Below are positions 9,945 to 24,247 of a stretch of DNA of 41,445 nucleotides, one piece after another. The stretch covers positions 1-41,445 of the forward strand of contig NZ_NYVD01000117.1 of NCBI RefSeq assembly GCF_002684405.1. The letters run 5' to 3'. The stretch's first letter is position 1. Every line of letters starts with the position of its first letter. The DNA comes from Parvibaculum sp. (GTDB lineage Bacteria > Pseudomonadota > Alphaproteobacteria > Parvibaculales > Parvibaculaceae). The translations under genes were made by a program, and so were the position numbers. The notes beneath the pieces are model-generated. The model was not told the DNA's origin. It saw only the letters and a program-made list of their open reading frames with translations, and searched no databases.

Positions 9945-10778
9945 TTAAATGCCGTCGCCGTCGGTATTGGTGACCGGAAGATGGATACCGCACTCGTCCT
10001 TGTCCTGCCCGGCCCAGCGCCCGTCGCGATAGGACCCGCCCTCGGGCACACGTTCCGTGCAGGGCATGCAGCCGATGGACAGATAGCCGTCCTTCACCAG
10101 CGGATGGCGCGGCAGCCGGTATTCGTCCAGATAGGCCTCCAGCTTCTCCTGGTCCCAATCCGCCAGCGGATTGAGCTTGAAGCGGGTGCCCAGCACGGCC
10201 GATTTGGCCTCTCCCGGCGCGCCAGTACCCCGGATCGCCTCTTCCTCGATCTTGTGCATGGCGGAGCGGGCGCTTGTCTGGAAGCGCTTCCGGCCCGTGA
10301 TCGACATATCCACGCCCTTGAGGGCGCGCTCCAGCGGCAGCACCTTGCGGATATGGCAGCACTGGTCCGGATTGGCGTTCCACAGACCGCCCTGGGGGTC
10401 ATCGGCCTTCAGGTCGTCGGGATGCGGGCCAATGGCGCGCAAATCCGCAAGCCCCAGCTTTTCCTGCAGCCGGTCGCGATAGCGCAGCGTCTCGCCGAAG
10501 AGCTTTCCCGTATTGAGAAAGATGACCGGCGTCGTCGGGTCGATCTGCGAAATCATGTGGAGCAGCACGGCCGATTCCGCCCCGAAGGAGGATACGGCGG
10601 CAATACGGCCCTGAAACTCGCGCTGGATCATAACCTCGAGAAGCTCCTGCGGCGCAAGACTCTCATAGGCGTCGCGCAATGCGCGCAGACGTTCCGACGT
10701 GACAGGCTCGGCATCCATCACCGCGGCCTGCCGGTCGGTCAGCCCCGTGCTTTTTCTCGTAAGGTCGAGTGCGGTCAT
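9945..10778 (-). CDS. cysH: Assimilatory phosphoadenylyl/adenylyl-sulfate reductase, Fe-S type
   Basis: A 277-residue CysH reductase that makes sulfite from activated sulfate using thioredoxin electrons. The PP-loop-like AVSSFGAESAVLLH (61-74) binds nucleotide, and the C-terminal Cys263 in ECGIHLP is the catalytic cysteine. A CC pair (140-141) and CxxC (237-240) are present. In the family these four cysteines hold a [4Fe-4S] cluster and mark adenylyl-sulfate (APS) reductases. Their presence suggests APS rather than PAPS as substrate. The ATG overlaps the stop of the upstream siroheme gene as ATGA, implying translational coupling; an upstream in-frame opening (to 10898) is not family-like. Confidence 0.92.
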   Translation of the reverse strand: MTALDLTRKSTGLTDRQAAVMDAEPVTSERLRALRDAYESLAPQELLEVMIQREFQGRIAAVSSFGAESAVLLHMISQIDPTTPVIFLNTGKLFGETLRYRDRLQEKLGLADLRAIGPHPDDLKADDPQGGLWNANPDQCCHIRKVLPLERALKGVDMSITGRKRFQTSARSAMHKIEEEAIRGTGAPGEAKSAVLGTRFKLNPLADWDQEKLEAYLDEYRLPRHPLVKDGYLSIGCMPCTERVPEGGSYRDGRWAGQDKDECGIHLPVTNTDGDGI

Positions 10779-11335
10779 GACAACCAGCCTTTCTCGTCGA
10801 TAAGGGCGTCGGTCCGGCGTCCGAGTTCGGCAATGCCTGTTCCTTCGTCCCGCCACATCTCTCGCTGGCGGGCCAGTTCGTCGAGCCGCCCGCCCCACTC
10901 TGGCCCGAATTTTTCAGCCAGATAGCGCTTCAGCCGGCGTGCCAGACCCGGCGACTTGCCGCCCGTCGAAACGGTGAGCGTAAGATCGCCACGCCGCAGC
11001 ATGGAGGGCACATGAAAATCGCAGAGCGCCCGGCGGTCTTCCGTATTCACAAGGGCGCCTGCCTCCCGCGCCGCTCTGGCCAGTTTCGCAGACTCGTCTT
11101 CCTCGAGACCCGCAATGAAAACCACGCCCGCCGTCTTCAGCGCCTCCGCCGAGGGCCGCCCGCCACGCAACCTGTCGCCAATCGCCTCGGCATAGTCCGG
11201 CGCCGGATCGCGTGCATAAACATCCAGCCGCACCGCACCGGCGTCATCCAGCAGGCGCAGCCGGCGTTGGGCATCCTCGCCCTCTCCGATCAGCACGATC
11301 TTCACGCTGGCGGTATCGATCAGGATCGGAAACAT
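10775..11335 (-). CDS. Precorrin-2 dehydrogenase / sirohydrochlorin ferrochelatase (CysG N-terminal type)
   Basis: A 186-residue protein equivalent to the N-terminal module of siroheme synthase: an NAD-binding Rossmann segment (residues 1-110, with VLIGEGEDAQRRLRLL), then the SMLRRGDLTLTVSTGGKSPGLARRLK segment typical of Met8p/CysG-N. It oxidises precorrin-2 and chelates iron to make siroheme, the cofactor of assimilatory sulfite reductase. No uroporphyrinogen methyltransferase domain is attached. The chosen ATG (MFPILIDTA) has AGGAGG 10 nt upstream; an upstream in-frame ATG at 11401 adds non-family residues. It is fused in an operon with cysH, consistent with a sulfate-assimilation function. 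Sulfite reductase is not in this window. Confidence 0.88.
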   Translation of the reverse strand: MFPILIDTASVKIVLIGEGEDAQRRLRLLDDAGAVRLDVYARDPAPDYAEAIGDRLRGGRPSAEALKTAGVVFIAGLEEDESAKLARAAREAGALVNTEDRRALCDFHVPSMLRRGDLTLTVSTGGKSPGLARRLKRYLAEKFGPEWGGRLDELARQREMWRDEGTGIAELGRRTDALIDEKGWLS

Positions 11336-11411
11336 GGACGCCCGGCCTCCTGCTAAACTCCAATTCCCCAAAGAGATATGGAACCGGAGAAAATAATTCA
11401 AGAAGATAACG

Positions 11412-11444
11412 TATTATACAAATAATAACATAAATATTATGTTC
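11412..11444 (-). promoter_or_regulatory. AT-rich promoter with palindromic operator upstream of siroheme gene-cysH
   Basis: In an otherwise GC-rich genome the 171-bp gap before the siroheme gene contains a strongly AT-rich patch. On the minus strand a perfect TATAAT (plus 11414-11419) is preceded by a perfect inverted repeat, AACATAA-ATA-TTATGTT (plus 11428-11444), which covers the expected -35 region. No good -35 hexamer is present, as is common for activator-dependent promoters. The palindrome is seen directly; a sulfur-status regulator binding there is an inference. Confidence 0.55.
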
Positions 11445-11455
11445 TTTTTGCGCGC

Positions 11456-11481
11456 AAAAAAGGGCCGCGCCCGGCCCTTCC
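11456..11481 (-). terminator. Intrinsic terminator after the FliN-like gene
   Basis: On the minus strand AAGGGCCG-GGCG-CGGCCCTT forms a GC-rich hairpin immediately followed by a run of T residues. It lies 26 bp beyond the stop of the leftward FliN-like gene and separates it from the siroheme-cysH promoter. Confidence 0.85.
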
Positions 11482-11506
11482 ACTCGAATCCGGGGCGTTT
11501 AGCGCC

Positions 11507-11755
11507 CTAATCGGCTTGCTGGCTGATCAGTTCCGTGACCGAAATGGCGATCCGCTCGCCCTCCACGACGATCTGGCCCCTCGCAATCGGGATATTGTTG
11601 GCGAGGAGGAGGACATCGTCCTCATGGCGTGTATTGAGTTCGATCACCGCGCCGCGGCCCATCTTCAGCAATTGCTGAATTGGCAAGGTGGTCTTGCCAA
11701 GTACCACCGATAGTTCGACAAAGACCTTGTTGACGGAGTTCATTTTCGCGCCCAT
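11507..11755 (-). CDS. Stand-alone FliN/SpoA-domain protein
   Basis: A short protein of about 82 residues that is essentially one SpoA (surface presentation of antigens / FliN C-terminal) domain: VELSVVLGKTTLPIQQLLKMGRGAVIEL then VLLLANNIPIARGQIVVEGERIAISVTEL. In flagella FliN forms the C-ring switch with FliM and FliG; SpoA proteins also occur in type III secretion. It lacks the N-terminal region of typical FliN (about 100-140 aa). The start is uncertain among in-frame ATGs at 11794, 11755 and 11743, none with a strong ribosome site. No other flagellar gene is in the window. It is divergent from lipB and followed by its own terminator. Confidence 0.75.
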   Translation of the reverse strand: MGAKMNSVNKVFVELSVVLGKTTLPIQQLLKMGRGAVIELNTRHEDDVLLLANNIPIARGQIVVEGERIAISVTELISQQAD

Positions 11756-11818
11756 TAGCTTATCTGCCCCGTAGAGGAGCACCACCCGGAGCACAAATTC
11801 GCATGGCGGAGTTACCTC

Positions 11819-12514
11819 GTGGTTAACCAGACGAACAGCCAGACCCTTTCAGCCGACACACCATCCGAAGTGGAATGGCGCGTATCGGACACGCCCGTGC
11901 CCTATGAAGAGGCCGTCGCCGTCATGGAAGAGCGCGCGGCAGCCATTGCCGCCGGCGAGGCGCCGGAGCTGGTCTGGCTGCGGGAGCATCCGCCGCTCTA
12001 CACCGCCGGCACCAGCGCCGATGAGCGCGACCTGCTGACGCCCGGCCGCTTCCCGGTCTTCAAGACGGGCCGTGGCGGCCAGTACACCTATCACGGTCCC
12101 GGCCAGCGCGTGGCTTACGTCATGCTGGATCTGAAACGCCGCAAGCCGGATGTCCGCGCCTATGTGCAGGATCTGGAGCGATGGCTCATCGCCGCGCTGG
12201 AACGGTTCAACGTGAAGGGCGAAATCCGCGAGGATCGCGTCGGCGTCTGGGTCCGCCGCCCTGAAAAGGGACCGGGCCGCGAAGACAAGATCGCCGCCAT
12301 TGGCGTACGCCTGCGCCGCTGGGTGACGTTTCACGGCATCAGCCTGAACGTCGATCCCGATCTCGATCACTTCACCGGTATCGTGCCCTGCGGCATCAGC
12401 CAGCATGGCGTGACGAGCCTCGCCGATCTCGGGCATCTCGTCTCGATCCCGGAAGTCGACATGGTGCTGCGAGAGACCTTCGATGAGGTTTTCGGCGATA
12501 ACGAGAACGCCTAA
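11819..12514 (+). CDS. lipB: Octanoyl-[acyl carrier protein]:protein octanoyltransferase
   Basis: A 231-residue LipB, which moves octanoyl groups from ACP to lipoyl domains of 2-oxoacid dehydrogenases and the glycine cleavage H protein, the first step of lipoate synthesis. Motifs are [12 protein letters not shown] (85-96), the catalytic Lys157 in KIAAIGVR, and the catalytic Cys191 in [11 protein letters not shown]. The start is GTG at 11819 with GGAG upstream; the upstream ATG at 11803 is out of frame and stops after seven codons. The 3' end overlaps the convergent bactofilin-like gene by 4 bp. Confidence 0.94.
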
Positions 12515-13542
12515 GGCAAATCCGCCTGCTTCATCCCCAGCACGATAGACCCGATCCCCGCGGTCACGATAGCAAGCCAGAAAAGGCCGCCCGCAATCGG
12601 CATGGAAAGCGCCACCCAGAACACGAATGTTGCAATGGCAACGCCGATAATGCGACCCAGCGCGCCCTCGCCCACCGCACCGAGCTTCGACCAGACAAAG
12701 GCGCCAGCCGCGACGATCGAAGTGATGAACCCTGCGATCACGCCGAGCGGCCACAACAGGATCAGAATGAAAGCCGCCGGAATGCCGACAATCGTCAACG
12801 CAACGGCGACTGCAAGAACCGGCACGCCGATGATCCAGGCCAGGCCGAAGAGAAAGGCGAGCAGCGGGTTGTCGCTAAACCCGTCGCACAGACGCGCGCT
12901 CCCCTCCGGTGACAGCAGGGCGAAGATCGCCGCGAGAATGCCGAATATGACCGCGCCGCCTGCCGAGACGCGATAGCCCGGCGCGGACCATTCCGACCGG
13001 CTCCGCTCTTCCCATTCGCGCGGCAGTTGCCGGTCACCCGGTATGGCCCGCGGGGCGGGACGCGGTTCGGCCTCCTCGGACGACCAGGCGTTTTCGCTCA
13101 CTTTGCCGGAAACTTCCGCCCCCGGATCGATTTCAGCCCGCGAGGCAGCGTAATAGTTCACATCTCCGCCGATCTTCGCATCCGGTCCGAGCGTCAGCTT
13201 GCTGCCATAGAATGTGACATTGCCGTTGACCACACCGTTGATGAGCGCATCCTGCGAGCGGATGGAAACATCGCCATCGACCCTGCCGCTCATCGCGACG
13301 CGCCGCGCGGCAACCCAGACGTTCCCGTCGATAACGGCATCCGGCGTCAAAATCACGGTCTCGGCCAGCACATTGAGATCGCGGTCCGTCTTGCGCGAGA
13401 AGGTCACTTCCTGCCCGGTCAGGAACAGAGCGTCGTCCGTTCCCCATTCATAGCCTTTCTGGGCCGCATGAGCAGCACCGCCCGGCAAGGCGGACAGAAC
13501 CGGCAGGATCATCAGCAACAGGGCCAGCAGAAACGCGCGCAT
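12511..13542 (-). CDS. Exported bactofilin-like beta-helix protein with C-terminal membrane domain
   Basis: A 343-residue protein with a signal peptide (hydrophobic stretch ending near AAHAAQ). Next come short repeated strands with alternating valine, aspartate and glycine ([55 protein letters not shown]), typical of the polymer-forming/bactofilin right-handed beta-helix. A proline/arginine-rich linker leads to a C-terminal part with about four transmembrane segments. Classical bactofilins are cytoplasmic and lack both signal and membrane parts; this architecture puts the helix outside the cytoplasm. ATG 13540-13542 has AAAGGA upstream; a longer frame from 13587 would precede the signal. Precise function unknown. 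Confidence 0.75.
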
Positions 13543-13601
13543 CGTCGGTCCTTTCAGCTCGTGACGCTCAACCCGAACTATAGGCACAAGCGCCGCATAT
13601 G

Positions 13602-13630
13602 AAAAAGGGCGCCCGAAAGCGCCCTTTTTT
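13602..13630 (-). terminator. Intrinsic terminator of the pcc operon
   Basis: GGGCGC-TTTCGG-GCGCCC on the minus strand, flanked on both sides by A/T runs, lies 20 bp beyond the pccA stop. The flanking A run and T run make it potentially bidirectional. It also sits upstream of the next leftward gene, separating the two transcription units. Confidence 0.88.
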
Positions 13631-13650
13631 GTGCTTCTCGAACGGAAAAC

Positions 13651-15666
13651 CTATTCGAATTCCATGATGACGGCGTCGACTGCCAGGCTGTCGCCCTCTT
13701 CGCAATTGATGCTCTTCACCACCGCATCCACTTCGGCGCGGAGAATATTTTCCATCTTCATGGCTTCGACCACGGCAAGCGCCTCGCCCGCCTGCACTTC
13801 CTGGCCGACCTCCGCATGAAGCTTCTTCACAAGGCCCGGCATGGGGCAGAGAAGCATCTTGGACGTGTCGGCGACCTTGAGCTCGGGCATCAGCGCTGCG
13901 AGCGCATAGCCGCGCACCGTATGCACGATGGCATTGGCCGTCGCACCGCGATAACGCAGCAGATAGCCCTGCTTGGCGCGGTCCGTCTCGACGACATATT
14001 CCTTGCCGTCGATCTTGCCCTTCCAGACAGCCTGTCCCGGCGTCCAGTCCGACCGCACCAGATGCTCGGAAAGCCGCTTGCCGTTCTCGTCGAGGAAGAA
14101 GACCTCCAGCCCCGCCGCCACATCCGTCGCTGAAACGCGCTGGTTCCACTCGTCCAGCGATACGATCCACTCCGTCGGCAGCACGCGCGGCCTGTTGGGC
14201 AACTGACCCGAAATCTGCACCGCGCGGTCCGCATGCATCTTGTTCATGTGAACCGCGATGACGGCGAGCATGACGGCGCGCTCATCGGCCAGATCCACAC
14301 CCTTGAACCCGTCCGGATACTCTTCGGGAATGAAGTTGGTCGTCAGGCGGCCTTCGCGGAACCGCGGATGCTCCATGATCGCTGCAAGGAACGGAATATT
14401 GTGCCCGATCCCCTTGATATGGAAACTGTCCAGCGCTTTCGACATATGCTTGATCGCCGAGAGCCGGTCCGGCCCGTGCGTGCAGAGCTTGGCGATCATC
14501 GGATCGTAGAACAGCGAAATCTCGCCGCCCTCGAACACACCGGTATCGTTGCGGATGGTGAGGCCCTTCTCTGTCCCCTCCTGCGGCGGCTGGTAGCGCA
14601 CCAGACGGCCGGTGGACGGCAGGAAGTTCCTGTACGGATCTTCCGCATAGATGCGGCTCTCCATGGCCCAACCGTTGATCTTCACATCCGACTGCTTGAT
14701 CTTCAGCTCTTCGCCATTGGCGACGCGGATCATCTGCTCCACCAGGTCGATACCGGTGATGAGCTCGGTCACCGGATGCTCCACCTGCAGGCGGGTATTC
14801 ATTTCGAGGAAGTAGAAGTTCTTGTCCTTGTCGACGATGAACTCCACCGTGCCCGCGCTCTCATAGTTCACGGCCTTGGCAAGCGCCACGGCCTGCTCGC
14901 CCATGGCCTTGCGGGTTTCCTCATCGAGGAAGGGCGACGGCGCTTCCTCGATCACCTTCTGGTTGCGGCGCTGGATCGAGCATTCGCGCTCCACCACATA
15001 GATCGCATTGCCCTTCTTGTCGGCCAGCACCTGAATTTCGATATGACGCGGCTGCGTCACGAACTTTTCGATGAAGACGCGGTCGTCGCCGAAGCTCGAC
15101 TTGGCTTCCGACATGGACGAGGCAAAGCCGTCGGCCACTTCGGATTCCGACCAGGCGATACGCATGCCCTTGCCGCCGCCGCCGGCAGACGCCTTGATCA
15201 TCACCGGATAGCCGATGTCGTTGGCGATCTTCACGGCCTCTTCCGCCGTCTCGATCACGCCGAGATAACCCGGCACCGTGTTGACCTTGGCTTCGTTGGC
15301 GAACTTCTTGGACTCGATCTTGTCGCCCATCACCTCGATGGCCCTGATGTTCGGCCCGATGAAGGCAATGCCGTTATCGGCCAGCGCCTGAGCAAATTTC
15401 GCGTTCTCCGACAGGAAGCCATAGCCGGGATGAACGGCCTCGGCGCCCGTCTCCTTACAGGCCGCGATGATCTTGTCCGCGATCAGATAGGATTCCGATG
15501 CGGGCGGCGGGCCGATAAACACGTGCTCGTCCGCCATCTCGACGTGAAGTGCGTCGGCATCCGCCTCGGAATAGACGGCCACCGTCTTGATGCCCATGGC
15601 GCGCGCCGTCTTGATGACGCGGCAGGCAATTTCGCCTCGGTTGGCGATCAGGATTTTCTTGAACAT
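13651..15666 (-). CDS. pccA: Propionyl-CoA carboxylase biotin-carrying (alpha) subunit
   Basis: A complete 671-residue alpha subunit. Domains in order are biotin carboxylase (1 to about 450, with [17 protein letters not shown] and [14 protein letters not shown]), the PCC-type BT linker domain, and a C-terminal biotinyl domain with biotin-accepting Lys637 in EAMKMEN. It carboxylates biotin with bicarbonate and ATP; with PccB it converts propionyl-CoA to methylmalonyl-CoA. Length and pairing with pccB distinguish it from the methylcrotonyl-CoA paralogue at the left end. Its ATG directly abuts the stop codon of the upstream DUF4393 gene, so its ribosome-binding site (GAGGGGA) is made from that gene's last codons. 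Confidence 0.95.
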   Translation of the reverse strand: MFKKILIANRGEIACRVIKTARAMGIKTVAVYSEADADALHVEMADEHVFIGPPPASESYLIADKIIAACKETGAEAVHPGYGFLSENAKFAQALADNGIAFIGPNIRAIEVMGDKIESKKFANEAKVNTVPGYLGVIETAEEAVKIANDIGYPVMIKASAGGGGKGMRIAWSESEVADGFASSMSEAKSSFGDDRVFIEKFVTQPRHIEIQVLADKKGNAIYVVERECSIQRRNQKVIEEAPSPFLDEETRKAMGEQAVALAKAVNYESAGTVEFIVDKDKNFYFLEMNTRLQVEHPVTELITGIDLVEQMIRVANGEELKIKQSDVKINGWAMESRIYAEDPYRNFLPSTGRLVRYQPPQEGTEKGLTIRNDTGVFEGGEISLFYDPMIAKLCTHGPDRLSAIKHMSKALDSFHIKGIGHNIPFLAAIMEHPRFREGRLTTNFIPEEYPDGFKGVDLADERAVMLAVIAVHMNKMHADRAVQISGQLPNRPRVLPTEWIVSLDEWNQRVSATDVAAGLEVFFLDENGKRLSEHLVRSDWTPGQAVWKGKIDGKEYVVETDRAKQGYLLRYRGATANAIVHTVRGYALAALMPELKVADTSKMLLCPMPGLVKKLHAEVGQEVQAGEALAVVEAMKMENILRAEVDAVVKSINCEEGDSLAVDAVIMEFE

Positions 15667-16440
15667 CTAGTCTTCGTCCCCTCGACAGGCAGCTACAAAT
15701 TCATACCCCAAAGGCATGAGTCTGACATTCAACAGGAAATGACGTTTCCCATGATTGATAAACGAGGCCGAATTTACCGTTACCAATCCTAGCGATTCCA
15801 AGTGCAGCAACGAAGCGCCCTCCGGAACCCCATAAAGAGAAAATTCATTCGTATTCGGAATATCGTCATTGTGAAAAAACAAATTGTACCCGCCAAAAGC
15901 CTCTACAGCCTCGACCAACTTGCTTTCATCACACACCTCTAGACCTTGAACGAAGCCAACAAAATCTTGCTCAGAATGCCTGAAGGTAAATCCATCCGGA
16001 CGAAAAAAATCTTCCTGATGCTTACCGCACGCTAACGTATCCAGCAGCCTTGCCTGCCAAGCGTCTATTGCCGAAAGACACTCAACACACCACTTGTAGT
16101 TAACCCCTGTATACGTCCCCGCTGTCACTAACAAGTTCGCCCATTTTTCATTCAGCTCGCTATCTTCAGCTTCTAGGGAAGCTTCCTCGATAAAAGGCAC
16201 CAGAAATTTAAGCTCAACAGGTGACAACTCCCTATTGCGTTCACCGGCAAGAACAGACGCCCTCTCAACAACTCGCAGCGCTGTTTTCCAACGATGGAAT
16301 CTAATTCTGTCGGACAACACATCGGTAATGTCTGCAACAGGACCAATCAGCCGAGTCAGAAGATGCATAGCTTCCCGACTTACATCAGCCGGGATATCTA
16401 TGTTCGCCTTCAGCATTTTGTCATCGGCCTCTTCGGACAT
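15667..16440 (-). CDS. DUF4393 / Abi-alpha (abortive-infection-like) protein inserted in the pcc operon
   Basis: A 257-residue protein resembling the DUF4393 (Abi_alpha) family. The diagnostic layout is visible: an N-terminal LLTRLIGPVADITDVLSDRIRFHRWK helix, then LVERASVL-type helix, then the conserved FLVPFIEEASLEAEDSELNEKWANLLV motif near residues 80-105. The C-terminal ~100 residues include a LLHLESLGLV winged-helix-like segment. No signal peptide or transmembrane helix is apparent. Abi-alpha proteins are annotated as phage abortive-infection components, but mechanism is unknown. The gene is markedly more AT-rich than its neighbours (about 42% GC in a sampled line versus about 60%). It starts 11 bp after pccB and its TAG abuts pccA ATG. 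Confidence 0.8.
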   Translation of the reverse strand: MSEEADDKMLKANIDIPADVSREAMHLLTRLIGPVADITDVLSDRIRFHRWKTALRVVERASVLAGERNRELSPVELKFLVPFIEEASLEAEDSELNEKWANLLVTAGTYTGVNYKWCVECLSAIDAWQARLLDTLACGKHQEDFFRPDGFTFRHSEQDFVGFVQGLEVCDESKLVEAVEAFGGYNLFFHNDDIPNTNEFSLYGVPEGASLLHLESLGLVTVNSASFINHGKRHFLLNVRLMPLGYEFVAACRGDED

Positions 16441-16451
16441 GGAGATCGCCC

Positions 16452-17984
<1,533 letters not shown>

Positions 17985-18137
17985 GCCGCCCCCTTATTTG
18001 CTGGCTGGCTTCCCGCCGCTGGAAAACAGGCGGGCTGTGGCCGGGCGTGATGACATTATCCGGCGCCGGAAACCGCCTGCCCTCTCCCGATCGGAGACGC
18101 AGGCCGGCTGCGAACGCCTTCCCTGTGCGAGGCGCTT

Positions 18138-18167
18138 TCAATAGCACCCTGCACGAAAAATTGCCAA
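18138..18167 (-). promoter_or_regulatory. Candidate promoter of the pcc operon
   Basis: In the 247-bp gap between the ATP12 stop and pccB, the minus strand has TTGGCA (plus 18162-18167) followed after 18 bp by TATTGA (plus 18138-18143). The match is moderate. No PccR-type TTTGCAA pair was seen in the gap. Confidence 0.35.
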
Positions 18168-18231
18168 TGGTACGCGCGGTTTACGGCGGTTTTCCGGGGG
18201 CATGGGCCATGCCCGGCGCGCCGACGCTGCG

Positions 18232-19041
18232 TCAGACCGGTTCTCGGTCCAGCAGGGCCAGAAACCGCGCCGTGTCGGCGATCTCCGAGCGGCGGGTTTC
18301 AAGGCGGATTCGCTCCTCCTCATCCTCCCCGCAAAGCTGTTCCGCCCAGGCTTCCTCCACATGGGCCGCCTGGTGGACCGCCTCCGCATCCATCCTGCCC
18401 CGCACCAGCGCCAGCGCGATCAGGGCAGAGCCCGTCAGCGTGGTCATATTGTGGAGCGCTGCGACCCGGAAGGCATCGAGCCCCGTTACGGCGCGGCGCA
18501 GCCGGTCCAGCGCATCGGCATCCTGCGGCACCTGAATGAGGCCGCTGGTCGTGACGAAGGCGGCCCCGAGTTCGTCCCGCGCCCAGTTCAGTACCGGGTC
18601 CCAATGCGCAGCCTGCAGGGCCACGAGCCCCTCGGGATATTCCGCCCGGTAGCAGGTGAGGTCCGAGCCGCCGAATTTGACGATTTCCTCCGCCACGGTG
18701 TCATGGCGCGGCTCCACCAAATCGAGTGCGGTATTGGCAAGCCGTGTGAGCCACATGACACGCGGATCGATTTCCTCGGTCTGCGCCTCCCATTCCTCGG
18801 CCATGGCGCGGGCCAGCGCCTCGCTGGGCACGACAAGCGCCCGGCGCGAAGGGGTCTTCACGCCCTTGCCGTCCAGCAGCACCGTATGCCCGTCCTCCAG
18901 CGGCGCGGCCTCCGCTTTCTTGTAGAAGCGTTTGGGCAGCTTTCTGAGCTTCTGTCCGCCGGGATGGGCGGCCTGCTCGTCGCCTTCTTTTCGTTCGGCG
19001 AGATCGAAAATGCCGCCGCTCTTGTCGCTATCGTCCTGCAT
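18232..19041 (-). CDS. ATP12-family F1-ATPase assembly chaperone
   Basis: A 269-residue protein of the ATP12 chaperone family, which in mitochondria and alphaproteobacteria holds the F1 alpha subunit before hexamer assembly. Family signatures seen are RFYKKAEAAPLEDGHTVLLDGK near residue 40, LARAMAEEWEAQTEEIDP, MWLTRLANTALDLV, and DLTCYRAEYPEGLVALQAAHWDPVLNWA, which is highly typical. A charged N-terminal ~35 residues precedes the conserved domain. It is cytoplasmic. It starts about 20 bp beyond the AsmA stop and ends the rarA-led run. The only bacterial lineage where this family is common is Alphaproteobacteria. Confidence 0.92.
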   Translation of the reverse strand: MQDDSDKSGGIFDLAERKEGDEQAAHPGGQKLRKLPKRFYKKAEAAPLEDGHTVLLDGKGVKTPSRRALVVPSEALARAMAEEWEAQTEEIDPRVMWLTRLANTALDLVEPRHDTVAEEIVKFGGSDLTCYRAEYPEGLVALQAAHWDPVLNWARDELGAAFVTTSGLIQVPQDADALDRLRRAVTGLDAFRVAALHNMTTLTGSALIALALVRGRMDAEAVHQAAHVEEAWAEQLCGEDEEERIRLETRRSEIADTARFLALLDREPV

Positions 19042-19061
19042 GAAATCCTTACTCGAAATCC

Positions 19062-20870
19062 TTACTTGCCGAATAGATTGCCGATGCCCTTGCCGACATC
19101 CTCAAGCGCGCCGCCGACGCCTTCCGCCGCGCCCTTGGCAGCACCGCCAACGGTCTCGCCGACGCCCTTCACGAGGCCCGTCATGCCGCCATCCTTCGCC
19201 GCCGTCGCGGCAAGCGCGGCACAACCGCCGGAGCTTGCGACCGACCGATCGCCGGTACTCATCAGCGGCAGGAGCGCGCCCACACCGCCCGTCAGCGCGG
19301 TACCGGCCACCGCCGTTGCCACGCCGGTGACCACGCCCGTCCTGTCGAGACCGGCAGAGGGCGATGCCAGCGGCCCGGACAGGCGCACCGGAAAGGCAAG
19401 GCTGACAAGCGACGGGTTCTTGGGCTTGGGCTTCAGCAACAGGTCGACATATTCCGACCCGAGATTGACCGTGCCGCTACCCGTAGTGACGAGGCTGTCC
19501 GTCTCCAGCGCCAGCGCCTTCGACGTGCCGACGCCATTCTTGAAATCGAACCGGCTCAGCGCGCAAACAAGCTTTGCGCGGTCGCCCTTCTCGCCATTGG
19601 GAATGAGGACATTCACCAGATCGTCCGACACCATCGCGAAGGCGCGTGAATTGATACTGCCCTCACCCAGCGCAAAATTGGTCTGGCCGTTCGCACTGGC
19701 CGCGATCGCATGGAGCGAAGCGCCGCGCCCTCGAAGTTCCGCGCCGAAATCGGCCTCGGCACTCAGAAGGTCGGTCACATCCGCATCGCTCAGGAGACGG
19801 CCGAAATCCAGGGCGGAAGACTTCGCATCGAGGCTCACCGACTTTGCCTTGCCGTTGACGCCGATATCCGCCGTGATGGGACGGTCGCGATATCGCACAC
19901 TCAAAGGCAGGTCGAGGTTGCCGTTGCCGATTTTGAGCGGCGCCTTGAAATCCGTGAGCGTCACTCCGCCGTAAACAAGCTTGTCGATGGAAAGGTCGAG
20001 ATCGACATCTACCGTTTCGAGCGCATCGAAAGGAAGCGGATCGCTGCTGAAAAGTTTGCCGCCCGACTTTCCGCCGGAAGAACCGGTCTTGCCGCCTTTC
20101 AGCAGCGGCGTCACATCGAGTTCCGGGCTCGTGAATGCACCTTTCAGCGTCAGCTGCTTGTTCGCGCCACGCTGCAACGAAAGATCGCCGCTGACGCTGG
20201 TATCGCCGATGGTCAGCGCCGTCCCCTTGAGCGACAGGTCGGAGGCATCGCCGGAAACGACCGAGTCGAATGAAATCTCGGTGCCGTTCACCTCGCCCTT
20301 CACTCTGACATCGGTGGAGTTGAACCCCGGATCGAGCCGCACCTCGTCGAAGCTGGCTTCATTCACCTTGCCCGTCACGCCATCGCGATAGGTGATGGCG
20401 AGATCGGTGATTTTCACATCGGGGATGCTCGCCAGGCTGGGACCGCCCGAATTGTCTTCCGGTTTGGTAGGCTCGGGTGCGGCGCCGGTCGACAGCTCCC
20501 AGTTCCCCACGCCCTTCCTGTTCGTCTCCAGATAGATATCCGCGCCGTCGATCTCCACCGAGCGCGCATCGATCTTCCCGCTCAGCAACGGCAGAAGGGC
20601 GACCTGAATGCCGAGCTTCTTCGCAGTGAGCATGTTGGGCCGCGAACCCCAATCGGCATTGGCGAAGCTCACATTCTCCGCAACGACCGTGGGCACCAGC
20701 GAAACACCGATATGGAGCGGCCCCGAAATCTTGAGCTCACGCCCCGTGGCCTCTTTCGCCGCCTGCTCGATCTGCGGCGCGAAGCGCCCGAGATCGACGA
20801 AACTGAGCGCGACCAGCGCGCCACCCAAAACGAGGACGAGAACGACGAGAACCTTCAGCAGACCCTTCAT
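19062..20870 (-). CDS. AsmA-family envelope protein
   Basis: A 602-residue AsmA protein. One N-terminal transmembrane helix (MKGLLKVLVVLVLVLGGALVALSF) anchors a long periplasmic beta-rich body with the family hallmarks: GRELKISGPLHIGVSLVPTVVAENVSFANADWGSRPNM (about 40-85) and the C-terminal EADFGAELRGRG...GQTNFALGEGSIN segment near residues 380-420. AsmA-like proteins form bridge-like grooves that carry phospholipid between inner and outer membranes. The C-terminal ~70 residues are unusually glycine/alanine rich (GLVKGVGETVGGAAKGAAEGVGGA), perhaps amphipathic. The ATG at 20870 has AGAGGTAG upstream; it follows the HAD gene by 11 bp. Confidence 0.9.
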   Translation of the reverse strand: MKGLLKVLVVLVLVLGGALVALSFVDLGRFAPQIEQAAKEATGRELKISGPLHIGVSLVPTVVAENVSFANADWGSRPNMLTAKKLGIQVALLPLLSGKIDARSVEIDGADIYLETNRKGVGNWELSTGAAPEPTKPEDNSGGPSLASIPDVKITDLAITYRDGVTGKVNEASFDEVRLDPGFNSTDVRVKGEVNGTEISFDSVVSGDASDLSLKGTALTIGDTSVSGDLSLQRGANKQLTLKGAFTSPELDVTPLLKGGKTGSSGGKSGGKLFSSDPLPFDALETVDVDLDLSIDKLVYGGVTLTDFKAPLKIGNGNLDLPLSVRYRDRPITADIGVNGKAKSVSLDAKSSALDFGRLLSDADVTDLLSAEADFGAELRGRGASLHAIAASANGQTNFALGEGSINSRAFAMVSDDLVNVLIPNGEKGDRAKLVCALSRFDFKNGVGTSKALALETDSLVTTGSGTVNLGSEYVDLLLKPKPKNPSLVSLAFPVRLSGPLASPSAGLDRTGVVTGVATAVAGTALTGGVGALLPLMSTGDRSVASSGGCAALAATAAKDGGMTGLVKGVGETVGGAAKGAAEGVGGALEDVGKGIGNLFGK

Positions 20871-20881
20871 GTCACTACCTC

Positions 20882-21574
20882 TTATCCTGTTGGCGTTTCC
20901 GCCGCCCATAAGCGATCCAGTGCCGGCAGAAGCTCGTCGAAATGGGTAAGCACCTTCCCGGCGCCGGCACGCCTCAGCGTGTCCACTTCATGATAGCCCC
21001 AATCGACACCCAGCGCATATGCGCCCGCGGCACGGGCCATCTCCATGTCATAGGTCGTATCGCCCACAAGCACCGTGTCGGCGGGCTCCACCCCCGCCTC
21101 CCTGATGGCGCGGCGCAGCATTTCCGGATGCGGCTTGGACGGCGCATCGTCCGCCGTCTGAAGGGTCATGAAATAGCGCCCGAGCCCATGCGCCTCCAGC
21201 GCATGCCGGAGCCCCCGCTGCGACTTGCCCGTCGCGACGCCCATCAGCACATGGTCGATGGCATAGAGCCCTTCCAGCGCGGCCCGCGCGCCCTCAAACA
21301 ATGGCTCCACCAGATCGGCCCGTTTGCGCAGTTCGAAAAACGCATCCTTATAGGCGAGCGTCAGCTCGTCCCGCTTCGGCGCTTCCACATGCGGCACCAG
21401 CGTCGCGATCGCCTCGTCCAGCGACAACCCGACAATCGACAACACCTGCTCGCGCGGCAGCGGCTCCATCTCATGCTTGGTGAAGGCATGAGACATGGCA
21501 GCGGCGATCATGTGCTGGCTGTCGATCAGCGTGCCGTCGCAATCGAAAACCACAAGTTTCAGGCGATCGCTCAA
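20882..21574 (-). CDS. HAD-superfamily phosphatase, phosphoglycolate phosphatase-like
   Basis: A 230-residue HAD hydrolase. Motif I is FDCDGTLID (nucleophile Asp11, acid/base Asp13), motif II is GVATGKSQ, motif III includes Lys147 in SKPHPEML, and motif IV is VGDTTYDMEMA (Asp172, Asp176). The helical C1 cap lies at about residues 20-90. The Gph-like family removes phosphate from small sugars such as 2-phosphoglycolate, but substrate cannot be fixed from sequence. Its start appears to be TTG within the overlap TTGA with the pseudouridine synthase stop, implying translational coupling. Confidence 0.86.
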   Translation of the reverse strand: MSDRLKLVVFDCDGTLIDSQHMIAAAMSHAFTKHEMEPLPREQVLSIVGLSLDEAIATLVPHVEAPKRDELTLAYKDAFFELRKRADLVEPLFEGARAALEGLYAIDHVLMGVATGKSQRGLRHALEAHGLGRYFMTLQTADDAPSKPHPEMLRRAIREAGVEPADTVLVGDTTYDMEMARAAGAYALGVDWGYHEVDTLRRAGAGKVLTHFDELLPALDRLWAAETPTG

Positions 21575-22569
21575 AGCTCCAGCTCCTCGAAGGGGTTCTC
21601 GTCGTCTTCCAGGTCGAAGGCGAGCAGCTTCCAGCTCTTCTGCATATGCGGCGGCAAAGGCGCGACAAGATGCAGACGTTTGCCCTTACCCGCCGGATGC
21701 GCAATGTCGAGCGAGCGCGCATGCAGATGAAGCTGGCGCGGAATCTCGCCGCCCGGGTGGGCATTAACGCCGCCATATTTCCCATCGCCCACGATAGGCG
21801 TTTCGATGGCCGCCGCATGGGCGCGGATCTGATGGGTACGCCCTGTCATCGGCATGAAAGCGACCCAGGCAAGTTTGTAGGACGCCGTGCCGACAACCGC
21901 ATAATGCGTCTCGGCATATTTGCCGTCGGGATCGCCTTTGGCGGCGGGGAACACGCGCTCAGCCCGCGGCCCGCCCTGCTTGGAGAGCGCCAGCTTGATG
22001 GTCCCGCGATGCGGCATCGGCACGCCCACCACCAGCGCCCAGTAAACCTTGCGGGCATCCTTCTGCTTGAAGGCTCGAGCAAGCTCCGTCGCGGCCCTGG
22101 TATTGCGCGCCAGAACGAGCACGCCGGACGTATCGCGGTCCAGCCGGTGCACAAGCTTGGGCCGTTCGCTCGCATCGAATGTGAGTGCGTCGAGCATCCC
22201 GTCCAAATGGCGCTCGGTCTTCGTTCCGCCCTGCACGGCAAGTCCCGCCGGTTTGTTGATCGCAATCACATCATCGTCGCGATAGATGACAAGCGAACGA
22301 ACAAAGTCTGCATCTTCATCGGAGAGCTTCTGTTCCTTTTTCGGCGCAGGCTTTTCGATATCGTCGCCCATCGGCGGCACGCGCACGGTCTGCCCGGCCT
22401 CAAGCCGCAGATTGGCCTTCGCCCGCGCGCCATCCACACGAACCTGCCCGGTGCGCAGAAGCTTTTCGAGACGGCCATGCGTCAACGCCGGGTAACGGCG
22501 TTTGAACCAGCGATCAAGCCGCGTCCCGTCTTCAGCCTGCGAAACCTCGATCTGCTCGACAGCGCTCAT
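21571..22569 (-). CDS. RluA/RluC-family 23S rRNA or tRNA pseudouridine synthase
   Basis: A 332-residue pseudouridine synthase. An N-terminal S4 RNA-binding domain (about 15-65, GTRLDRWFKRRYPALTHGRLEKLL) precedes the RluA-type catalytic domain, with the catalytic Asp144 in LVHRLDRDTSGVLVLARN and the conserved GRTHQIRAHAA segment. The S4 domain and length favour RluC or RluD over RluA, and the exact uridine targets are not assignable. The ATG overlaps the crcB stop by 4 nt (ATGA), and its own stop overlaps the next start. Confidence 0.9.
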   Translation of the reverse strand: MSAVEQIEVSQAEDGTRLDRWFKRRYPALTHGRLEKLLRTGQVRVDGARAKANLRLEAGQTVRVPPMGDDIEKPAPKKEQKLSDEDADFVRSLVIYRDDDVIAINKPAGLAVQGGTKTERHLDGMLDALTFDASERPKLVHRLDRDTSGVLVLARNTRAATELARAFKQKDARKVYWALVVGVPMPHRGTIKLALSKQGGPRAERVFPAAKGDPDGKYAETHYAVVGTASYKLAWVAFMPMTGRTHQIRAHAAAIETPIVGDGKYGGVNAHPGGEIPRQLHLHARSLDIAHPAGKGKRLHLVAPLPPHMQKSWKLLAFDLEDDENPFEELEL

Positions 22570-22946
22570 ACAAGAACCAATCGTACGAAATAAAGCCCGG
22601 CGAAGAGAGCCGCGATCGCGCCTATCACCGAGCCGCCCACATAGAGCAAGGAAAGAAGCCCATCACCGCGCTCCATCATATTGGCCGCATCGAGAGAGAA
22701 AGCGGAGAAGGTCGTGAACCCGCCAAGAAGGCCCGTCATGACGAAGCTGCGCATTTCAGGAGAGAGGTGGAACTTCAGCGCCAGCCCCTCTGCGACAAAA
22801 CCCATAATGAAAGAGCCGATCAGGTTCGCACTGAAAGTGCCCCACGGAAAACTGGAACCGAACCAATGCAGCATCTGCGCGCTAAGCAAGTATCGTCCAC
22901 TCGCGCCGACGGCGCCGCCAATTGCCACTGCGAAAAGTCCGTTCAC
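22566..22946 (-). CDS. crcB: Fluoride exporter CrcB/Fluc
   Basis: A 126-residue four-helix membrane protein of the Fluc fluoride channel family. Signatures are GGAVGASGRYLLS at the N terminus, PWGTFSANLIGSF, and the pore segment GLLGGFTTFSAFS that carries the phenylalanine-box and central Na+ region. The family works as an antiparallel dimer exporting fluoride. The start is taken as GTG at 22944-22946, overlapping the rarA stop as GTGA, with AGGAGAAGGG directly upstream. A longer frame from TTG 22976 would start inside rarA. No fluoride riboswitch is seen; it is expressed within the rarA operon. Confidence 0.92.
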   Translation of the reverse strand: MNGLFAVAIGGAVGASGRYLLSAQMLHWFGSSFPWGTFSANLIGSFIMGFVAEGLALKFHLSPEMRSFVMTGLLGGFTTFSAFSLDAANMMERGDGLLSLLYVGGSVIGAIAALFAGLYFVRLVLV

Positions 22947-24247
22947 TGACCCTTCTCCTGTCTGAGTTTCTGCCAATAAGCCAGCCGCTTTGCGATCTCG
23001 CGCTCGAAACCGCGATCCACCGGCGAATAGAATTTCTGGCGCGTCATCTCCTCGGGGAAATAATCCTGCCCCGAAAATGCGTTCGGCGCGTCATGGTCGT
23101 ATTCATAGCCTGCGCCATAGCCGAGATCTTCCATCAGCCGCGTCGGCGCATTGAGGATATGGGCGGGCGGCGAGACGGAGCCCGTCTCCTTGGCCGCGCG
23201 CTTCGAGGCGCCGAAGGCCTTGTACCCAGCATTCGATTTCGGCGCCGTGGCGAGATAGATCGTCGCCTGCGCCAGTGCCAGATCGCCCTCCGGCGAGCCC
23301 AGGAAATCGAAAACCTCCTTGGCCGCCAGCGCCTGGTGTACCGCTTGCGGATCGGCCAGACCGATATCCTCGATTGCCGCGCGCACCAGCCGTCTGGCAA
23401 TGAAGAGCGGATCTTCGCCGCCGACAAGCATGCGCGCCAGCCAATAGAGCGCCGCATCGCAATCGGAGCCGCGAATGGATTTATGGAGCGCAGAGACGAG
23501 GTTGTAGTGCCCCTCCCGTCCCTTGTCGTAAAGCGGCGCCCGTCGCTGAATGGCGGCAATCAGATCGGCGGTTTCGAACGGCTCGTCCGGCGCCAGCGCA
23601 TAAACCTCTTCGGCCAGGTTCAGCGCATAGCGCCCGTCGCCATCGGCCATGGCGCGGAGGCTTGCCCGCGCCTCGTCGGTCAGCGGCAGCGGGCGGCCCT
23701 TATGCGCCTCGGCGCGCGCCAGCAGTTCCTCCAGCGCGGCATCGTCCAGCCGGTTCAGCACCAGCACCTGCGCACGGGAGAGAAGCGCGGCATTGAGCTC
23801 GAAAGACGGGTTCTCTGTCGTCGCGCCCACCACCGTCACCGTCCCGTCCTCCATGACCGGCAGGAAGCTGTCCTGCTGGGTCCGGTTGAAGCGGTGGATC
23901 TCGTCCACGAAAAGCAGCGTCCCCTGCCCCGTCTGACGGCGCGCCCGGGCGGCGTCGAACACCTTCTTGAGGTCCGCCACACCGCTGAAGATCGCCGACA
24001 TGGGCGCGAAATGGAGCCCCACCCGGTTCGCCAGCAGCCGGGCGATGGTCGTCTTGCCCGTGCCGGGCGGCCCCCAGAGGATGATCGAGGAGAGATGCCC
24101 CGACGCCAGCATCCGCGCAAGCGGCCCCTTCTCGCCCAGCAGATGCGACTGGCCGACCACCTCTTCCAGCGTCTGCGGGCGCAGCTTGTCGGCGAGCGGG
24201 CGCGGCGCCCCCTCATCCATTCCGGCTGCTTCGAAAAGATTACTCAT
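22943..24247 (-). CDS. rarA: Replication-associated recombination protein RarA/MgsA
   Basis: A 434-residue AAA+ ATPase of the RarA/MgsA/WRNIP1 family, related to clamp-loader proteins and acting at stalled forks. Walker A is GPPGTGKTT (59-67), Walker B is [10 protein letters not shown] with Asp114-Glu115, and sensor-1 follows in [14 protein letters not shown]. The MgsA C-terminal signature includes [28 protein letters not shown]. It is the first gene of a six-gene leftward chain. The region upstream is shared with the divergent bfd-bfr genes. Confidence 0.94.

Follow-up and report, generated by a model that had tools for sequence, protein, structure and literature searches.

An Abi-alpha family gene at the pccA start codon of a Parvibaculum propionyl-CoA carboxylase operon

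Defence genes are usually sought in islands, prophages and plasmids. The gene considered here belongs to the Abi_alpha family (PF14337) and lies between pccB and pccA, which encode the two subunits of propionyl-CoA carboxylase (PCC), in a stretch of 41,445 nucleotides from Parvibaculum sp. (contig NZ_NYVD01000117.1, positions 1 to 41,445; hereafter the window, its genome being G000). The only tested member of the family found is Abi-alpha (EF2833) of prophage 6 in Enterococcus faecalis V583, for which abortive infection with early lysis was described, the mechanism being left open there (PMC6356687). The two proteins share their family (PF14337, formerly DUF4393), a similar size (272 residues there, 257 here) and relatives on phage genomes (PMC6356687).

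In the open-licence PMC literature nothing was found that joins PCC to abortive infection or deals with the insertion of defence genes in operons, and papers on abortive infection with coupling or operons held nothing on the subject as judged by their titles. Two broader classes, as they are generally understood, also bear comparison. Like phage morons and superinfection-exclusion genes, copies related to the window gene on two viral contigs sit next to genes for replication or structural proteins, or between such genes; unlike morons, the window copy lies off phage and a consensus scan gave it no promoter-like site. With defence islands and hotspots it shares patchy presence and absence at a fixed chromosomal place; unlike them, it is a single open reading frame (ORF) at an operon start codon, and the ten ORFs around it are housekeeping-type or unmatched. 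We lean towards the view that it is a phage-derived Abi-alpha gene, present in some strains and absent from others, which would use the initiation site of pccA and hand ribosomes on to pccA.

Fit of the Abi_alpha gene in the pcc operon

As the earlier note had proposed, the product matches the Abi_alpha profile, with 43.3 bits against a cut-off of 29 (residues 68-252 aligned to profile positions 20-196 of 196), and the two phage copies and the remaining three pccB-linked ones pass the cut-off as well. The gene starts 11 bp past pccB, where a Shine-Dalgarno (SD)-like TGAGGG overlaps the pccB stop, and its TAG (15667-15669) abuts the pccA ATG (15664-15666) with zero spacing; each of these points had been read correctly before. 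In the nearest relative, G019 (PccB 98% identical), the slot is empty and reads CTCTGAGGGCGATCTCC-ATGTTCA, and the window carries the same letters up to the ATG, from which the Abi gene follows. The GGG of the 11-nt stretch and the pccB TGA form an SD-like GAGGG, which stands before pccA in G019 and before the Abi gene in the window, with a duplex energy of -6.1 in both. The captured gene would in this way have taken over the ribosome-binding site and ATG position used by pccA in relatives. A second SD-like element, CGAGGGGAC, lies 9 nt upstream of the pccA ATG inside the 3' end of the Abi gene and has a fair energy of -6.7.

Since the Abi stop touches the pccA ATG, ribosomes ending there can restart on pccA, and the contact is compatible with termination-reinitiation; the operon would then keep working with the gene in place. 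Whether through its loss or through disturbance by a phage, the gene might also affect propionyl-CoA metabolism, as the earlier note proposed. A consensus scan of 15000-18300 found no promoter-like site (shuffle mean 1.1) and one terminator-like site, within pccB (shuffle mean 3.4). From the position behind the SD of pccA, the stop-start contact and the result of the promoter scan we infer that a phage-derived Abi protein would be expressed with the pcc operon, its gene being co-transcribed with pccB.

The composition of the gene sets it apart from both neighbours. Its GC content is 0.474, and 0.477 at third codon positions (GC3), against a GC of 0.617 in pccB and 0.609 in pccA and a GC3 of 0.82-0.83 in the neighbours; on codon usage it scores -0.37, where ten other window genes reach 0.20-0.39. 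The AT-richness from which acquisition had been proposed is thus real (47% against 61-62% GC); an acquisition, or a recent loss in relatives, is supported by the slots read in the genus and the clean empty site of the nearest relative. A GC of 0.47-0.48 was found alike in the copies of G000, G015, G166 and the phage contig L196. Ten window ORFs (9945-24247) were scanned, of which nine belong to housekeeping-type Pfam families and one had no match at E 1e-10. No mobile-element or recombinase Pfam family was seen in pccA, pccB and ten further window ORFs, to which the search was confined. Repeats at the borders of the gene are short, imperfect and chance-like, the start codon alone being repeated there, and beyond it we found no target duplication or terminal repeats of the kind that would mark insertion of a mobile element. 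The earlier remark that no recombination scar, repeat or mobile gene lies beside it therefore holds.

Table 1. Features of the pcc locus, in coordinates of the whole window; pccB, the Abi gene and pccA run in one direction
Feature	Position	Strand	Basis
pccB, propionyl-CoA carboxylase beta (carboxyltransferase) subunit	16452..17984	-	PF01039 Carboxyl_trans, 643 bits; orthologues in relatives
Intercistronic stretch, 11 nt	16441..16451	-	letters the same as in the G019 empty site
Abi_alpha (PF14337) gene, 257 aa, at the pccA start-codon position	15667..16440	-	Pfam; absent from the otherwise aligned G019 locus
N-terminal module, residues 1-104, ending in a W-A/S-x-L-L motif	16129..16440	-	segment comparison; alignments
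C-terminal module, residues 105-257	15670..16128	-	well conserved with G015 only
TAGATG junction, Abi stop then pccA start	15664..15669	-	sequence
pccA, propionyl-CoA carboxylase alpha (biotin carboxylase and carrier) subunit	13651..15666	-	PF02786, PF00289, PF02785, PF18140, PF00364

Empty and filled slots

Counting the window, the slot between pccB and pccA was read in 30 loci of this family. In 22 of them the gap is 9-13 bp, in six it is 168-246 bp with no recognised gene, and two (the window and G015) carry an Abi gene. Among the 27 genomes of the genus the slot was read in 22, and the gene was present in 2 of the 22. Together with its codon score this shows that it is not an ordinary member of the pcc operon; the counts, the atypical codons and the empty G019 locus are at odds with the universal presence and typical codon use that the earlier note would have expected of such a member. 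The second filled slot, in G015 (PccB 91% identical; contig CAISYL010000096.1, uncultured alphaproteobacterium), holds a homologue of 266 aa that is 40-41% identical; it, too, occupies the pccA start position, and it ends TAAG-ATG. The slot of G004, which of 24 other loci is the closest to G015 over 1,200 bp of pccB/pccA, is empty.

When the flanks of the window gene are joined and set against G019, 187 bp across the junction are free of differences, and 250-bp blocks of pccB/pccA otherwise differ by 1.6-10%. Two longer runs of this kind occur in about 20 kb, so that this one, the third in length, is no proof of recent exchange. Imported flanks were considered as a mark of homologous transfer and rejected: the sequence on either side of the Abi gene matches the empty relative at least as well as the rest does, and nothing foreign accompanies the gene there. 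The longest difference-free run of the same comparison (window 17788-18025) covers the start of pccB with the adjoining upstream bases. Read from the aligned letters, the difference is one ORF without accompanying sequence that was gained, or lost, at the start codon of pccA. The exactness of the fit may stem from selection keeping pccA translated, from exchange of operon alleles, or from a start-codon-specific process.

The inserts of the six congeners with longer gaps (L009, L010, L015, L016, L017 and L031) appear by eye rich in inverted repeats, and one frame is open in them, its TGA overlapping the pccA ATG (TGATG). Selection for coupling throughout the slot was considered and set aside, as a frame of this kind also stayed open in 32-62% of shuffle trials, which makes the result not significant. 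A pccB match was found in 220 of 385 genomes of the class. Among the pccB matches listed, 100 loci were fetched: 45 have pccA within 100 bp, 13 have it at 100-400 bp, 25 at a greater distance and 17 not inside the fetched stretch; in 25 other loci of the pccB search it lies within 61 bp in 15 and not within 1.5 kb in 10. The larger inserts hold, by eye, ordinary-looking genes. The slot is permissive; a fit this exact at the start codon seems peculiar to the Abi gene, the inserts not all having been scored for it. A regular expression for a tyrosine-recombinase motif, a weak test of a site-specific element, had no match in 125 slot loci of other genomes.

A slot that accepts other genes and repeats in other genomes, and a frequency of 2 in 22 within the genus, are what would be expected of a tolerated passenger, that is, a phage-derived ORF which persists only because pccA expression is unharmed and which has no present function. 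The 257-aa frame is intact, however, with conserved motifs, and so is the homologue in the same slot of G015, hinting at selection for the protein; the reappearance of such genes behind pccB in further families also speaks against a passenger, and we regard it as unlikely.

Recurrence after pccB and phage-borne relatives

What the earlier note lacked is that related genes turn up again beside pccB in further families and also on phage contigs. Members of PF14337 occur in 4 of the 27 genus genomes and, for the class, in 8 of 385 sampled genomes (nine genes). Pooled, these are 12 different Abi_alpha genes, four of which (G000, G015, G165 and G166, from three families) lie directly after pccB, a share biased by sampling seeded from the window (3/9 in the class draw alone, 2/8 without the window). 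The remaining eight have no pccB in the fetched loci. The three pccB-linked copies that can be compared with gene-less relatives each sit at the start-codon position of the next gene. The G166 copy starts on a GTG overlapping the pccB TGA, which as read by eye is where the next gene starts in congeners; all seven congener loci read are without an Abi gene. The G165 copy, from an order represented by one genome only, begins 41 bp past pccB and meets the next ORF in a TGATG. A search of the phylum with alignment A2 (398 genomes) gave, besides the window, two weak matches in loci without pccB, and a search of genome contigs with alignment A1 gave one locus, the G015 contig. The recurrence suggests, from gene order and family, that the operon may have carried phage defence more than once.

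In profile scans of IMG/VR, two contigs came up that carry genes of the window gene's subfamily. On L196 a 308-aa copy lies between a helicase/primase gene and a terminase gene, with a major head protein beyond; on L198 the copy is cut by the contig end and stands beside baseplate genes. Both are lower in GC than their surroundings. No tblastn match at 1e-5 was found in collections of plasmid and phage records, no viral contig was found with alignment A1, and P0002 returned its own contig only. A second Abi_alpha gene of genome G032 shares its stretch with portal and terminase genes (L046 6417-7265 and 8560-11381, -) and is probably in a prophage.

In small trees the operon and phage copies form one group (98/95 in one tree; in another the eight remaining rows stand on the far side, 98/98). 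Within the operon and phage group, from whose trees rows G401 and G032a were omitted as long-branched, G015 joins the phage copies (98/96) and the phage rows nest among the operon copies. On the favoured reading the operon would originally have been seeded from phages, and the gene may pass between strains by exchange through pccB/pccA homology. A different origin, compatible with any present role of the gene, is one ancient insertion behind pccB, made in an ancestral alphaproteobacterium and lost since in most lineages by recombination with empty alleles, the phage copies being derived. It would account for the place of all four operon copies behind pccB, and these group together when the phage rows are left out (82/89). 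With the phage rows in, a group of the four alone is disfavoured by the approximately unbiased (AU) test (p 0.011; 0.055 with one phage row). The next genes also differ, being pccA in G000 and G015, two small two-transmembrane (2TM)-like ORFs in G166 and an ORF without a Pfam family in G165, and the gene occurs in 1 of 23 genomes of the order of G166, so that such an origin appears improbable.

The encoded protein and its possible role

A segment comparison showed that the N-terminal module is common to the phage-borne and the other pccB-linked relatives and that the C-terminal part varies far more. Residues 126-257 were modelled as winged-helix-like, and the C-terminal part resembles MarR/PadR winged helices; it may serve as a recognition or regulatory element, that is, a sensor. 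Five extra viral-contig loci, found with five other Abi_alpha proteins, were used only as rows of the structure alignment. A first structure model of the protein was discarded for its predicted local distance difference test (pLDDT) score of 39.8, and a single match in a PDB sequence search (E 0.48) was judged to be chance. The best Foldseek matches had an E of 0.11 against the PDB and of 1.6e-3, to an unnamed 229-aa protein, against viral structures. Scans of the product gave no match in NCBIfam and one in PHROGs (E 0.55). Residues 21-73 (gene 15670-16440, -) have a sub-threshold likeness to PF22127 NtdA_N, of 20.5 bits against a cut-off of 27.

In an infected cell the protein might act in the manner of Abi-alpha, with death or premature lysis before phage release. 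Several findings weigh against a phage-derived defence gene coupled to pccA. Unlike the E. faecalis gene, the window gene lies in a core metabolic operon with no prophage, and unlike a moron it stands outside any prophage, among housekeeping-type genes. PADLOC returned no family at E 1 for its product, and for the ten window ORFs only weak matches of 20-26 bits in two housekeeping-type genes. The pccA ribosome site that the earlier note placed in the last Abi codons is there, as given above; its strength is ordinary, 28 of 250 internal 25-mers of the gene being equally strong (95 of 259 in the G015 copy, 45 of 295 in that of G166). The G165 copy has a GC of 0.605 against 0.675 for its own pccB, a smaller gap, and low GC gives no date of arrival, since a phage copy is low in GC as well. 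The trees are unrooted, with few long-branched rows, and do not give the direction from phage to host; since the AU test does not reject G000 and G015 as sisters (p 0.083), a single older insertion followed by losses within the genus may account for both.

The same winged-helix resemblance, read from models, and the 4 of 12 sampled Abi_alpha genes directly after pccB might instead point to a regulator or sensor that binds PCC, biotin or propionyl-CoA or controls the operon; no pcc-specific feature of the gene or protein was found, a metabolic role is unlikely, and we hold such a regulator to be very improbable. Equally improbable in our view is a recurrent docking site after pccB, where bare phage-derived Abi-alpha ORFs with exchangeable C-terminal modules would enter exactly at the start codon of the following gene by an as yet undescribed start-codon-specific or homology-guided route and translation of a core enzyme would be a trip-wire, loss of PCC forming part of the abortive response; phage disturbance of pccB/Abi translation would then also lower PccA.

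If the gene is a phage-derived defence gene, a family recurring at one place in a core operon, fitted to start codons and related to phage genes, would be a further means of carrying and expressing defence, and such operon-borne genes would escape island-based searches. The stop-start junction also offers a natural test of how PccA and PccB stay in step. Away from pccB, G032 has an Abi_alpha gene immediately behind der (EngA), a core GTPase gene, on the same strand (L053 1489-2415, 2484-3689, -), and in G004 another stands tail to tail with an ORF that by eye looks to be of the SIR2 type (L045 5823-7814).
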